Below, one piece after another: positions 10,540 through 40,905 of a DNA stretch of 64,000 nt; position 1 is the stretch's first letter, and each line of letters opens with the position of its first letter. The notes under the pieces are model-generated. The model was not told the origin of the DNA and did not search any database. It saw nothing but the letters and a program-made list of their open reading frames with translations. The translations under genes were made by a program, and so were the position numbers. Source of the DNA: Rhizobium lentis (lineage in GTDB: Bacteria > Pseudomonadota > Alphaproteobacteria > Rhizobiales > Rhizobiaceae); NCBI RefSeq assembly GCF_017352135.1, contig NZ_CP071454.1, positions 3,001,001 to 3,065,000 of the forward strand. The letters are read 5' to 3'.

Positions 10540-10780
10540 GACCTTTCCTTCGGTCGTGCCGTTCCGGATGGATTATCGGTGATCGCCCTTCCGACATGGC
10601 ACGGGATCGGTGTCCATATCTTCGTCATTGTCAGGTTTAGCGTGTTCCGGAGAACGGCGATGCCTGGGTGAACTGCAGACCCGACGCAGCAATTATCATC
10701 GCGATCCCGGGATTTCAACCGCTTTCAAGCGGTGCCTCTGCCAACGGCCGGCCCCCGGCACATCTTGTCTGGCGGCGAAA

Positions 10781-37018: not shown

Positions 37019-38539
37019 TCACCCCCCAACCGAGGCAAAGAACCCCTCCGGGCTCTCCACCTCCACGAGCCGCTTCCTCTCGATCAGCCAGAAGCGGTTT
37101 CCCACAGCCCGCACGAAACTGCGGTCGTGCGATACCAGCAGGCAGCTTGCCTCCTGCGCCTTCAGCTCGCTTTCCAATGCCTCCTGTCCCTCCATGTCGA
37201 GATGGTTGGTCGGCTCGTCGAGCAGGTAGAAGTTCGGCTCGGTCAGCCGCAGTACCAGCATGGCGAGCCGCGCCTTCTGACCGCCGGAAAGCTGGCCGAT
37301 CGGTTTTGTCTGCATGTCGATCGTCATGCCGGCGCCGGCCAGCAAGGCCCGCGCCCGCTGATCGCCGACATCGAAGCGGCGGATGATCGTGCCGATCGGC
37401 GTATCCTTGTCGGCAAGATCGGCAAGGGCCTGGTCGCCGTAGCCGAGCACTAGCGACGGCGTCGCCTTTATGCCGTCCGGCGCGGCCCCGGGGCTTTCGA
37501 TCGCCCGCTTCAGCATCGACACCAGCCGCGACTTGCCGGCGCCGTTGAGGCCAAGGAGTACGATCCGGTCGCCCTGGCAGATGAATTGCCGGCCGGTCCG
37601 GAACAAGAGCGTCCCATCCGGCGCCGTCACCGCCGCGTCTTCCAACGTCACCAGCACCTTGGCATGGGTGCCGCGGTTGGAAAGCCGGATCGCCCCGGCC
37701 GAGCGTTCGAGATCAGCCGGTTTTGCCGCATCCTCCAGTTTTTCCGCCCGCTGCTTAAGCTGCTTCGTCTTCACGACGAGCAGGTCGCTGCCGGAATTGA
37801 TGCCGATATTGTTGAGCTTGGCCGCCTGCTTGCGAAGCTGCTCCGCCGTCTTCATGTCGCGCTGGTAGCGCCGGGCCTCGGAAGCGTCGGCTTCGTCGAG
37901 CGACGCACGCGCCCTGGAATAGGGAAGGGCAAAAACCGGCGATTGCTCCGGCCGCAGGAACAGCGTCCTGTTCGTCGTCGCATCGAGGAAGGCCCGATCG
38001 TGGCTGGAGAGAATGACTGGCACATCGCGCGGCAGGCCATTCAGCCAGCTTTCCAGCTGCTTTATCCTTTCGAGGTCGAGATGGTTGGTGGGCTCGTCGA
38101 GCAGCAGCACGTCGGGTTCGCAGACCCAGGTGCGGGCAATCATCGCCAACCGTTGCCAGCCGCCGCTCAACTGCTTGAGCGGCCGGGTGCGCATGACCTC
38201 CGGCACCTCGAGCGATTCCAGCACCACGTCGACGCGCCAAGCCTCGCTTTCGGCTTGATCGGCCGGCAGCGCCTGCAGCACCGCATCGTAAAACGGCGTG
38301 TCGAAAAGTGCGGCCGGCACATTCTGCGCGACATGGCCGACGGTCAGCCTGCGCGCCTTGGTGATCTCGCCCTCGCTCGGCTCCAGCGCGCCGGTGATGC
38401 AGGCGAGCAGCGTCGATTTCCCGCGCCCGTTGGCGGCGACGAGGCCGATGCGGTCGCCTGCATTGACGACGAGATTGAGTTTCGAAAACAACCGGTTGCC
38501 CAGCGTCACGCCGAGATTGCGGATATTGATGAGTGTCAT
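37019..38539 (-). CDS. ABC-F family ATPase, first of two
   Basis: 506 residues, two ATP-binding cassettes in one chain and no membrane helix. Cassette 1: ANGRGKSTLL, LSGGWQR, LLLDEPTNHLD. Cassette 2: LNGAGKSRL, LSGGQKARLA, YLLDEPTNHLD. The linker (about 215-285) is rich in Lys/Arg/Glu, as in ribosome-binding ABC-F proteins. These act on stalled or antibiotic-bound ribosomes. The ATG at 38539 follows AGAGA; a start at 38545 would add two residues. The 230 bases upstream hold a leader ORF and a terminator-like hairpin (38623-38769). Confidence 0.9.
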   Translation of the reverse strand: MTLINIRNLGVTLGNRLFSKLNLVVNAGDRIGLVAANGRGKSTLLACITGALEPSEGEITKARRLTVGHVAQNVPAALFDTPFYDAVLQALPADQAESEAWRVDVVLESLEVPEVMRTRPLKQLSGGWQRLAMIARTWVCEPDVLLLDEPTNHLDLERIKQLESWLNGLPRDVPVILSSHDRAFLDATTNRTLFLRPEQSPVFALPYSRARASLDEADASEARRYQRDMKTAEQLRKQAAKLNNIGINSGSDLLVVKTKQLKQRAEKLEDAAKPADLERSAGAIRLSNRGTHAKVLVTLEDAAVTAPDGTLLFRTGRQFICQGDRIVLLGLNGAGKSRLVSMLKRAIESPGAAPDGIKATPSLVLGYGDQALADLADKDTPIGTIIRRFDVGDQRARALLAGAGMTIDMQTKPIGQLSGGQKARLAMLVLRLTEPNFYLLDEPTNHLDMEGQEALESELKAQEASCLLVSHDRSFVRAVGNRFWLIERKRLVEVESPEGFFASVGG

Positions 38540-38622
38540 GATCATTCTCTGGTCTTGACCGGGGACGCGATCCGGGGCGTTCAGCCATCACGGAGTTGCG
38601 CGTATCGGGCCCGGGAATTGAG

Positions 38623-38650
38623 AAAAATGCGCGCTCTACGGCGCCGCATT
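38623..38650 (-). terminator. Leader terminator in front of the first ABC-F gene
   Basis: On the leftward strand AATGCG-G-CGC-cgtaga-GCG-CGCATT folds into a 9-bp stem with one bulged G and a six-base loop, running directly into TTTTTC. It lies between the leader ORF and the ABC-F start, so it could end transcription early. Confidence 0.6.
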
Positions 38651-38664
38651 GGCCACGAAGGGCA

Positions 38665-38699
38665 GACCAGGAAGAGATGTCGGGAAACGGTCTCTGGTC
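38665..38699 (-). promoter_or_regulatory. Middle hairpin of the ABC-F leader
   Basis: GACCAG at 38665 pairs with CTGGTC at 38694-38699, and an inner AGA can pair with TCT. It overlaps the stop codon of the leader ORF, so a ribosome at the end of that ORF would disrupt it. Confidence 0.45.
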
Positions 38700-38769
38700 A
38701 GCCCTGCAAACGCATCTGCAGGGCGTTGACGGGACCACGCTGGCGATGATGCCGGAAATAATACTGCAT
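38698..38769 (-). CDS. Candidate 23-codon leader peptide upstream of the ABC-F gene
   Basis: ATG at 38769 is preceded by AAAGGAGG eight bases away, one of the best ribosome sites in the window. The peptide reads MQYYFRHHRQRG, then PVNALQMRLQG, and stops with TGA at 38698. It does not overlap the ABC-F gene, which starts 159 bases later. Its last eight codons form the hairpin at 38701-38724. The position, strength of initiation and basic sequence fit a regulatory peptide whose translation by drug-stalled ribosomes controls the downstream terminator. No homologue is claimed. Confidence 0.55.
   Translation of the reverse strand: MQYYFRHHRQRGPVNALQMRLQG
38701..38724 (-). promoter_or_regulatory. 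Hairpin inside the leader ORF
   Basis: GCCCTGCA-8-base loop-TGCAGGGC is a perfect 8-bp stem made of the last codons of the leader peptide. A ribosome stalled early in the ORF would leave it folded, while one at the stop would melt it. Confidence 0.6.
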
Positions 38770-38874
38770 AACGTGATCCTCCTTTCTCGATAGAGTTGCG
38801 GGATTGAAATAACATTGCCTGCAGAAAGAGGCAAGCGAACCGCAGGCAAGCCTCCTCGCCTCGACCGAAGGCTG

Positions 38875-38955
38875 CCCCTGACCCTAACCCTTACCGGGGT
38901 CGAGACACGTGGCTCGACCCGGTTCGGTGGCGGCAGCCGGATGAGGGGCTTGCTA
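38875..38955. repeat. Rhizobial palindromic element, short variant
   Basis: CCCCTGACCCTAACCCTTAC, CGGGGTCGAGACACGTGGCT, CGACCCGGTTCGGTGGCGGC, AGCCGGATGAGGGGC. It shares the CGAGAC.CGTGGCTCG..CGGTTCGGTG core with the copy at 40.8 kb, and separates the two ABC-F genes. Confidence 0.75.
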
Positions 38956-38960
38956 CTCAA

Positions 38961-40559
38961 CTACCGGCAATTCACATCACCGCCAGCCAATTCCAACCGC
39001 CGCTCTATCCCGATGTTTTCGAGAAACGTCTCATCATGGCTGACAACCACAAGCGCCCCGTCATAGGCGCGCAACCCGGCCTCGACCGCTGAGATCGAGT
39101 CGATGTCGAGATGGTTGGTCGGTTCGTCGAGGATCAACAGCGGCGGCGGTGCGGAGCCAAGGACGCAGGCAAGACCGGCGCGCAGCAATTGCCCGCCGCT
39201 CAGCGTCGAGACGATCTGCAGCGCCGCATCGGCCCTGAACATGAAGCGGGCAAGGGCGGCCCGGCAGGCATTTTCATCGGCCTGCCGGTTGATCCGGCGG
39301 AAATTGTCGCGGATCGAGGCTGAGGGATCGAGAAGGCTGACTTTCTGATCGAGCATCGCGAAAGCGGTCATGACGGTGACCGTGCCGGCCCAGGCTTTCA
39401 GCTCGCCGGTGATGAGCGCCAGCAGGGTCGTCTTTCCCGAGCCGTTGCGGCCGGTGACGGCGATGCGTTCCGGTCCGGTCACGTCGAAGGAGAGATCGCC
39501 GATCACGGGATCGCCCGGCCGGTAACCTGCCGTCACGCCGTCCATCTTCAGCACGATCTTGCCGGCGGGCAGCCCCGTCGGCGGCAAGCTCACCGATAAT
39601 GGCTGCAGGATCTCGATCTTCCCGAGCGCCGCCTTTGCCTCGTGCTGCGCCTGTGCGCGCCGGCGTTCGGCAAGACGGGCATTGTCGCCGCCGGTCGTTT
39701 CGCTCCGCTCCTTCATGCCGCCGAGCATGATGCGCGGGATGCCGCCCTTGGCGGCCATCTTCCGCCCGGCGCTGTCCCTGTGCGCCTGGCGCTCCACCGT
39801 CGCCTGCGCCTTCCGGGCAACCTCGGCCATGCGCCTTTCGGCATCGGCAAGATCATGCTGGGCTGCGGCAAGCTCGAGCGCCTTGCGCTCGCGGTAGTGG
39901 CTCCAGTTGCCGCCGTAGCGCGTCGAGCCGAGCGAGGTCAGCTCGACGATCTGATCAACGCTTTCGAGCAATTCCCGGTCATGGCTGACGATGATGGCGC
40001 CGGCACGCCAGCCTGATATCAGCTGGATCACCGCCTCGCGGCCTTCGCGGTCGAGATTGTTGGTGGGTTCGTCGAGCAGCAGGAAGTCCGGAGCGCTGAA
40101 GATGAGCGCGGCAACCGCCGCACGGGTGCGCTGCCCGCCGGAGAGTGCAGCAAGCGGCGTCTGTGGCTCCGCGTCCAGCCCCGTCCGGTTGAATGCGGCG
40201 GCGATGCGCGCCGGGAGCGTCCAGTCCGCCGAGGCAAGCTCGTCGGCCGTTGCCTCGCCGGCTTCGGCACGCCGAAGAAGCGCAAGCGCCCTCGTCACGC
40301 CGAAGAGATCGGCGATGGTCTCTTCGGCCGCGACCTGAACGCTCTGCCGCAGCACCCCGAGGCTGCCGTTGATCGATACCGACCCGGATTGCGGCCGGAT
40401 ATCGCCGGCGACGAGCTTCAGCAGCGTCGTCTTGCCGACGCCGTTGCGTCCGACAAGGCCGGTGCGCTCCGTCCCGAAGCTGAGGTCGAGATCGGAAAAA
40501 AGCGACCGCCCGTCAGGCGCGGCCCAGGAAATTTGGGAGAGGGTGATGGATGCAGGCAT
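38961..40559 (-). CDS. ABC-F family ATPase, second of two
   Basis: 532 residues. Cassette 1: GRNGVGKTTLL, LSGGQRTR, LLLDEPTNNLD. Cassette 2: GRNGSGKTTLL, LSGGQLLRAGLA, LILDEPTNHLD. The long linker (about 225-320) is rich in Arg/Glu/Ala and includes GGIPRIMLGGMKERSETTGG, as in Uup-like and other ABC-F proteins. No membrane segment. The start at 40559 follows GGGGAAG. It is not a close duplicate of the first ABC-F. The two genes lie in the same direction 420 bp apart, each with its own leader region. Confidence 0.9.
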   Translation of the reverse strand: MPASITLSQISWAAPDGRSLFSDLDLSFGTERTGLVGRNGVGKTTLLKLVAGDIRPQSGSVSINGSLGVLRQSVQVAAEETIADLFGVTRALALLRRAEAGEATADELASADWTLPARIAAAFNRTGLDAEPQTPLAALSGGQRTRAAVAALIFSAPDFLLLDEPTNNLDREGREAVIQLISGWRAGAIIVSHDRELLESVDQIVELTSLGSTRYGGNWSHYRERKALELAAAQHDLADAERRMAEVARKAQATVERQAHRDSAGRKMAAKGGIPRIMLGGMKERSETTGGDNARLAERRRAQAQHEAKAALGKIEILQPLSVSLPPTGLPAGKIVLKMDGVTAGYRPGDPVIGDLSFDVTGPERIAVTGRNGSGKTTLLALITGELKAWAGTVTVMTAFAMLDQKVSLLDPSASIRDNFRRINRQADENACRAALARFMFRADAALQIVSTLSGGQLLRAGLACVLGSAPPPLLILDEPTNHLDIDSISAVEAGLRAYDGALVVVSHDETFLENIGIERRLELAGGDVNCR

Positions 40560-40737
40560 GGCTATGGACTTCCCCGTTGGCAAGGCGAACTGGCATTGCG
40601 ATCGGGTTGAAATCCATTGCGGCACACATCCTGTTGAAATGGTCGACGGCGGGAATTTAGGGAAGGAAGGCTGAAGGTTCAAGGCAGGTGGACAACTTGC
40701 CGCTCGCTTACCTCTGCTGGCTTCGTCCCTGAGATCG

Positions 40738-40905
40738 CCCCTCACCCTAACCCTCTCACCGTAAAAACGGGCGAGGGGACGTGCCCCGCAAGAGCGGGTG
40801 GGAGCGGAGAGGTTGCGGCATGTCCCTTCGCCGGAGCCGAAGGACGGGTCGAGACGCGTGGCTCGCCACCGGTTCGGTGCCGTCAGGCGGATGAGGGCTT
40901 ACGGC
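40738..40905. repeat. Rhizobial palindromic element
   Basis: CGCCCCTCACCCTAACCCTC, ACGTGCCCCGCAAGAGCGGG, GAGAGGTTGCGGCATGTCCC, then CGGGTCGAGACGCGTGGCTC, GGCGGATGAGGG. It fills the gap upstream of the second ABC-F gene and downstream of the DUF853 gene. Confidence 0.8.

Follow-up and report, generated by a model that had tools for sequence, protein, structure and literature searches.

A leader ORF and a putative translational attenuator precede one clade of ABC-F genes across Alphaproteobacteria

The window analysed here is a stretch of 64,000 nucleotides from Rhizobium lentis (contig NZ_CP071454.1, positions 3,001,001 to 3,065,000), and all coordinates refer to it. On its minus strand, a gene for an ABC-F ATPase, one of a protein type able to protect ribosomes, is preceded by a short leader ORF and by RNA segments that can pair in alternative ways. 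The first-pass annotation had read this arrangement as a leader peptide and a terminator, which could form an antibiotic-sensing attenuator. The features are, in the 5' to 3' direction of the putative transcript:

38806..38834, minus strand: putative promoter, TTGCCT-17-TATTTC, an element retained at a similar distance in the alignment of relatives
38778..38787, minus strand: leader Shine-Dalgarno sequence AGAAAGGAGG, with 8 nt between its end and the ATG
38770..38779, minus strand: 5' arm of helix P0, the end of the Shine-Dalgarno sequence and the following bases, pairing with 38741-38732
38698..38769, minus strand: leader ORF, 23 codons including the start ATG at 38769, plus the stop TGA ending at 38698
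38732..38741, minus strand: 3' arm of helix P0, inside the leader ORF, within the codons for QRGP
38731..38736, minus strand: Gly-Pro codons GGT CCC, the proposed stall site, two codons ahead of segment 1
38717..38724, minus strand: segment 1, GCCCTGCA, codons A16-L17-Q18, beginning at codon 16
38692..38708, minus strand: segment 2, TGCAGGGC-TGA-CCAGAG, the last leader codons, the stop codon and 6 nt
38660..38676, minus strand: segment 3, CTCTTCCTGGTCTGCCC, partner of segment 2 or segment 4
38622..38648, minus strand: terminator-like hairpin followed by TTTTTC, present in R. lentis, not conserved
38545..38556, minus strand: segment 4, AAGACCAGAGAA, the ABC-F ribosome site, predicted to be hidden by segment 3
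37019..38539, minus strand: ABC-F ATPase gene, 506 aa, ATG at 38539, 158 nt past the leader stop

From the putative promoter, the transcript would begin near 38799, 30 nt ahead of the leader ATG. A sigma-70 scan of the region found nothing, and a separate promoter scan scored weakly above shuffles (mean 6.80 versus 6.18 of 11), with scores of at least 8 in 16 of 116 loci versus 6.9% of shuffles.

Immediately upstream lies another, distinct ABC-F gene, also on the minus strand (38961-40745). Orthologs of it, 84-100% identical, were seen in most of the close relatives (L001-L020) but not in the more distant loci. The leader pattern defined below occurs once in the window, and thus no leader of that pattern precedes this second gene. 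The stretch between both genes (38845-38955, minus) is a dispersed repeat with 46 matches in the R. lentis genome, itself included, which we take to be a rhizobial intergenic mosaic element; one copy lies before the upstream ABC-F gene (40846-40897). The sole Rfam match of the window at the gathering score is the RF02940 COG3860 RNA at 10629-10682 (minus, 64.5 bits).

The ABC-F protein itself could not be assigned to a known resistance family. Among the best 25 of 191 matches to the NCBIfam models, the top score for a resistance ABC-F family was 289.6 for NF000355, versus a cut-off of 380, and the scores for Vga, Sal, Msr, Lsa, CplR and OptrA were far below their own cut-offs. PADLOC and Pfam returned generic ATPase matches only. 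By sequence, the best solved relative is the 8BUU chain labelled ExpZ, which was deposited with the paper on VmlR2, Ard1 and CplR (PMC10201436). In alignments, the interdomain linker of the R. lentis protein is shorter than that of ExpZ and longer than that of YheS. Its tip, LNNIGINSGSDLL, contains many columns that do not vary among 46 members of the clade.

Homology searches confirmed that the leader ORF and its hairpin are real, widely conserved elements that precede one ABC-F clade across Alphaproteobacteria. The 301-bp leader region has a single match in its own genome, which excludes a dispersed repeat. At the DNA level it matched 61 of 100 genomes searched, its own included (59 of 60 from the same genus, with G024 as the one exception, and 2 of 40 from other families). 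In every one of the 61, an ABC-F ortholog follows the region in the same orientation, and the start annotated at 38539 aligns with an ATG that all 61 loci retain. A covariance model (R1) built from 53 distinct rows from these loci matched 28 of 151 genomes in the family sample, 42 of 297 in the order sample, 5 of 289 in the class sample and 17 of 299 in the phylum sample, the last 17 all labelled as the same class or nearer. Three matches, one extra in the family (L089) and two in the order (L128, L129), were discarded as spurious, since they share the same unrelated sequence and lack a leader ORF.

Model R1 was made from these leaders, so that searches starting from the protein are the fairer test of linkage. 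The ABC-F protein was found in 26 of 151 family genomes (21 of 109 genera), 41 of 297 order genomes and 14 of 289 class genomes. In the family sample, the leader lies upstream of 26/26 orthologs. The same is true for 41/41 orthologs in the order sample; 40 of these genomes were in the leader list, and the leader of the remaining one (G298) was found by inspection and by running the model on its region. In the class sample, 8 of the 9 orthologs with at least 51% identity have a leader, five of them in the leader list and three with divergent leaders (L315, L316, L317). The ninth, in G753 (L314), is 64% identical, has an AT-rich upstream region without a visible leader, and provides a natural comparison. 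Of the five class matches at 35-43% identity, the three inspected (G532, G502 and G776) are without a leader.

A fixed DNA pattern of the Gly-Pro codons, hairpin and stop, holding no information about the ABC-F gene, identified at least 118 stretches in the genome contig collection. Among the 118 matches listed, 117 lie upstream of this ABC-F gene, at distances of about 54-221 nt, none precedes another gene, and the remaining one is cut off by the end of its locus. Named hosts among the matches listed are Rhizobium, Mesorhizobium, Bradyrhizobium, Bosea, Devosia, Ensifer, Phyllobacterium, Sulfitobacter, Tateyamaria and Roseomonas; with Rhodobacterales and Roseomonas among them, the system is not restricted to rhizobia. 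A chance origin is excluded by the conservation and by the absence of the pattern from 100 shuffles of the window. A known RNA family is excluded as well: the leader region has no match in Rfam 15 at the gathering score, and the two sub-threshold matches are to lncRNA and snoRNA families.

The leader also occurs on mobile DNA. Twelve plasmid records match, six of them typed as conjugative, and 9/9 copies inspected carry the leader, including those on S. meliloti pSymA and K. vulgare pKvSKV1; viral contigs gave 0 matches. According to Murina et al., patchy and partly plasmid-borne presence marks resistance ABC-Fs (PMC6723617). The occurrence in 26/151 family genomes and on 12 plasmid records resembles this distribution, whereas near-universal presence in the own genus, where the leader was found in 59/60 genomes, does not.

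Some loci depart from the standard arrangement. In G148, the source of the other extra family match of model R1, a leader-like hairpin (L087:1501-1587), one base off in length from that of the neighbouring L088, stands without an ABC-F gene, close to a gene that we take to be sfsA-like; it looks like decay after loss of the ABC-F gene. In G359 (L112:1501-2960), a Mutator-family transposase gene separates the leader from the ABC-F gene, which follows about 1.5 kb further. These two loci, the three spurious matches, four duplicates and four loci in which the ABC-F start could not be read (L088, L106, L115, L117) were left out of the 117-locus set, to which the counts over 117 loci below refer.

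The 23-codon ORF with a strong ribosome site was found as annotated, and encodes the peptide MQYYFRHHRQRGPVNALQMRLQG. Among relatives, the reading frame, start and Shine-Dalgarno sequence of the leader are conserved. Taking for each leader the start with the best site, an AGGAGG-like sequence (at least 5 of 6 positions) lies 5' of the start in 187 of 208 distinct leaders. The first-pass annotation had proposed codon-level conservation of the peptide as a check, and the frame is indeed kept: between close pairs among 186 distinct leaders, 765 single changes are synonymous and 325 nonsynonymous, with 24% synonymous expected (counted over codons -8 to +2 around Gly-Pro, with pairs that are not independent).

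The motif GGNCCN-N6-GCC is present in 117/117 loci of the model/BLAST set, and Gly-Pro is separated from segment 1 by two codons throughout. All 186 distinct leaders have Gly-Pro, a count that is partly true by construction, because both the DNA pattern and the regular expression require GGNCC. Outside the 117-locus set, L317 is an exception with Gln-Pro; among the four divergent leaders, all retain Pro and three retain Gly. Most leader cores conform to [RL][QTS]xGPxxA[LP], and 203 of the 207 leaders having a start place 8-12 residues ahead of the Gly. Arg/Lys-x-Arg/Lys, the +x+ motif of macrolide arrest, occupies positions -3 to -1 in 119/186 distinct leaders and is missing from those with RQF, LQH, LTY and others at these positions. 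Towards its C-terminus, the peptide follows the RNA hairpin, so that peptide conservation reaches only to GPxxA. With the hairpin GCCCCGCG/CGCGGGGC, the peptide ends in APRLISRG or a similar sequence; in L315 and L316 it continues beyond the hairpin, and in L019, L085, L086, L088, L113, L119 and L318 the stop codon lies inside it.

The ermC attenuator consists of four segments, and the anatomy of the R. lentis leader resembles it. In pairing 1:2 the last leader codons form a hairpin, pairing 3:4 would hide the ABC-F ribosome site, and pairing 2:3 is the proposed alternative. Both hairpins noted around the leader end in the first-pass annotation are present. The 8-bp hairpin of the last codons folds into 10 pairs (38724-38701), of which 8 form the perfect GCCCTGCA/TGCAGGGC stem, and the hairpin over the stop codon was found as GACCAG/CTGGTC. 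Taken by itself, the fold energy does not stand out (z -0.84 for 231 nt, z -1.77 for 119 nt), and the case therefore depends on sequence comparison.

Compensatory changes in the stems, another proposed check, were found for 3:4 and, weakly, for 1:2. Across 64 representatives, the native 3:4 duplex energy is -17.78 kcal/mol, versus -16.04 +- 0.30 kcal/mol when partners are permuted (0/2000 permutations reach the native value). The longest 3:4 helix averages 8.03 pairs, versus 7.51 in permuted (2/5000) and 5.87 in shuffled sequences. In 74/117 loci, 3:4 is within the best 5% of shuffles, and 43/117 miss this level. The pairing is kept despite quite different letters in L105, L083, L120, L125, L127 and L086. 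For 1:2, the signal is small and comes from few variant rows (-14.99 versus -14.75 in permutations, 0/2000, 64 representatives). The helix is maintained with altered bases as GCCCCGCG/CGCGGGGC, GCCCTGTA/TACAGGGC and GCCCCACG/CGTGGGGC, as the C-terminus of the peptide changes or its stop codon enters the hairpin. Pairing 2:3 gives no covariation signal (361/2000 permutations of the 64 representatives reach the native value), because its segments hardly vary.

An additional helix, P0, would close the ribosome site of the leader itself. P0 has 10 pairs in R. lentis. In 53 representatives, its duplex energy is -12.84 kcal/mol, versus -11.41 +- 0.32 kcal/mol in permutations (0/5000); its helix length is reached in 52/5000 permutations, and its helices exceed those with other windows of the same leader in 41/53 cases. 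Read by eye, the Gln-Pro codons CAGCCT of L317 are still able to pair with GGGCTG after the Shine-Dalgarno sequence. Comparison between loci thus shows the reading frame, the linkage, helices 3:4 and P0 and, with few variants, 1:2. The earlier proposal of a ribosome-mediated attenuator in front of the ABC-F gene is strongly supported by the conserved frame, by stems with some compensatory change and by the near-complete linkage to one ABC-F clade.

The switch between the pairings was computed as equilibrium folding for the free RNA, for RNA with segment 1 masked as by a stalled ribosome, and for RNA with a terminating ribosome. In R. lentis, the free state is predicted to have 10.84 pairs of 3:4 and the terminating state 11.65, and masking of segment 1 switches the fold completely, to 12.2 pairs of 2:3 and 0.01 pairs of 3:4. 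Averaged over the 117 loci, the free state has 7.79 pairs of 1:2 and 8.03 of 3:4, the masked state 6.60 pairs of 2:3 and 4.95 of 3:4, and the terminating state 9.87 pairs of 3:4. Masking increases 2:3 in 84/117 loci and decreases 3:4 in 88/117. The ABC-F ribosome site is more open in the stalled than in the terminating state in 86/117 loci, and more open than in the free state in 83/117. The mean gain in openness is 0.049, versus -0.004 once the segment-3 stretch is shuffled (p 0.0026). Openness rises in 43/64 representatives, so the switch is not predicted everywhere at equilibrium, and several clades show it only to a small extent. Among the 18 loci listed, ten (L021, L039, L041, L046, L083, L105, L111, L120, L125, L127) retain most of 3:4 under masking, and in L060 and L086 2:3 is already present without it.

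Taken as a device, the leader is very probably a translational attenuator. In the resting state, the strongly initiated leader would be translated to its stop; either 1:2 would form or the terminating ribosome would cover segment 2, leaving segment 3 to pair with segment 4 and to hide the ABC-F ribosome site. In the induced state, a ribosome stalled near Gly12-Pro13 would reach over segment 1 and block 1:2, segment 2 (GGGC-U-GACCAG) would capture segment 3 (CUGGUC-U-GCCC), and the ABC-F ribosome site would be freed. A ribosome with a codon in its P site covers about 15-17 nt downstream. With Gly12 or Pro13 in the P site, its edge would thus lie near 38717, where segment 1 ends. The stall position, the direction of control and an exit-tunnel antibiotic as the cause of the stall are inferred. 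The explanation as a whole, in which a leader ribosome controls translation of an accessory ABC-F protein by attenuation, appears likely, and that an antibiotic is the trigger is somewhat favoured.

The stall might also be drug-independent. Ribosomes translate Gly-Pro with difficulty, and scarcity of the ABC-F protein could make the leader ribosome pause and open the switch until the ABC-F protein resolves the stall. The Gly-Pro codons in 117/117 loci, the Pro in all four and the Gly in three of the divergent leaders, and the fixed spacing from Gly-Pro to the hairpin would suit such auto-regulation. EF-P and the ABCFs YfmR and YkpA/YbiT are described to resolve stalling (PMC11381351), and RAGP and RGPP to support arrest (PMC12992588). 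Like the SecM, RAPP and RGPP arrest peptides (PMC12992588), the leader has Gly and/or Pro where arrest is proposed, but its motif is xGPxxA, and the R. lentis peptide has RGPV and contains neither RAGP, RAPP nor RGPP. Moreover, patchy presence outside the genus ill suits a housekeeping resolver. P0 also holds the Gly-Pro codons: the R. lentis fold and the P0 test show this pairing, so that the Gly-Pro invariance cannot be a purely peptide constraint. As it is partly an RNA constraint, it is no proof of a stall at this site. Auto-regulation is an unlikely account. It is equally doubtful that five RNA strands form one hitherto undescribed device, spread over Alphaproteobacteria, in which the Gly-Pro codons close the leader ribosome site as RNA and pause the ribosome as peptide, with the pause relieved by the controlled ABC-F protein. 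If true, the device would be a self-adjusting gauge of nascent-chain stalling, which antibiotics or rhizobial tunnel blockers such as phazolicin would also trip.

In the first-pass annotation, the switch was thought to act by read-through of a terminator. In R. lentis, a stem does run into TTTTTC, with 6 T among the 8 nt after the hairpin. However, this stem (38648-38628, tail 38627-38622, about -8.4 kcal/mol) is bulged, not an uninterrupted 9-bp helix, and the T-run is not conserved: only 12/117 loci have, between leader and ABC-F gene, a hairpin with 5 or more T among the next 8 nt. In five loci (L085, L113, L119, L127, L130), segment 3 is just 40-50 nt from the ABC-F start, and in R. lentis the hairpin folds alike in the free, stalled and terminating states. 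The terminator was thus rejected as the conserved core of the device, and read-through does not stand as the mechanism in the form proposed. There is precedent for transcription attenuation, in which a stalled ribosome would prevent intrinsic termination at 38648-38622 or Rho-dependent termination in the leader: VmlR and CplR are reported to combine transcriptional and translational attenuation (PMC9226507, PMC10201436), and an S. meliloti uORF to control a DUF1127 gene by transcription attenuation, with Rho proposed (PMC12218461). As an explanation of this leader, it is quite improbable. The scarcity of the terminator suggests that control is probably exerted mainly at translation, and the pairing and covariation of segment 3 with the ABC-F ribosome site point to translational attenuation, to which termination may add in R. 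lentis.

The balance between P0 and leader translation, rather than a stall, could instead set ABC-F translation according to ribosome supply. P0 covaries, and in the alphaproteobacterial DUF1127 uORF of S. meliloti the ribosome site is likewise described to pair with its own codons, albeit in front of another gene, with another sequence and with transcription attenuation (PMC12218461). However, 3:4 remains formed in the ribosome-free fold (mean 8.03 pairs), so that a shortage of ribosomes alone should not turn on the ABC-F gene, which makes a supply sensor very unlikely. That the released peptide acts in trans, like S. meliloti peTrpL upon antibiotic exposure (PMC7298713), is hardly credible given C-terminal residues that change along with the hairpin and the strict cis linkage to the ABC-F gene.

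The translational attenuator resembles several known systems. In ErmCL-like leaders, the stall lies at a comparable depth in the ORF. The ermC leader provides a mechanistic parallel, as a stalled leader ribosome refolds the RNA and exposes the downstream ribosome site (PMC10219788); the R. lentis leader differs in its peptide, in the ABC-F gene instead of a methylase gene downstream, and in the extra helix that closes its own ribosome site. Among Gram-positive ABC-F genes, CplR, VmlR, VmlR2 and LsaA are also preceded by a uORF, and for CplR an anti-SD and translational attenuation are described (PMC10201436). Those uORFs are only 3-4 codons long (MR[I/M], MIN, MK[L/Q], MAGN), which is said to suit post-initiation drugs (PMC10201436). 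In contrast, Gly-Pro lies deep in the leader, after 8-12 residues. From this architecture we expect the trigger to be a drug that blocks elongation or the exit tunnel, or else slow translation of Gly-Pro itself, rather than an initiation inhibitor. The MsrDL leader of msrD also precedes an ABC-F gene and stalls ribosomes, but its peptide is MYLIFM, the stall is at the stop codon, and it works via an intrinsic terminator (PMC10314930).

In the open-licence PMC literature, the search results examined, which for longer lists were the top entries, contained no report of an alphaproteobacterial ABC-F leader, and four fragments of the leader peptide had no printed occurrence; preprints and most subscription papers lie outside this collection, which makes the former weak evidence of novelty. 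With this system, ribosome-mediated control of an ABC-F gene would occur in Alphaproteobacteria. An ABC-F clade outside all named families is thereby marked as probably inducible, and the substrate of the clade may be traceable via the inducer of the leader. The covariation supplies the exact bases for testing. Soil rhizobia encounter the macrolides of Streptomyces. They also meet phazolicin, a tunnel blocker made by rhizobia (PMC6783444), and the switch would therefore bear on competition in the rhizosphere.
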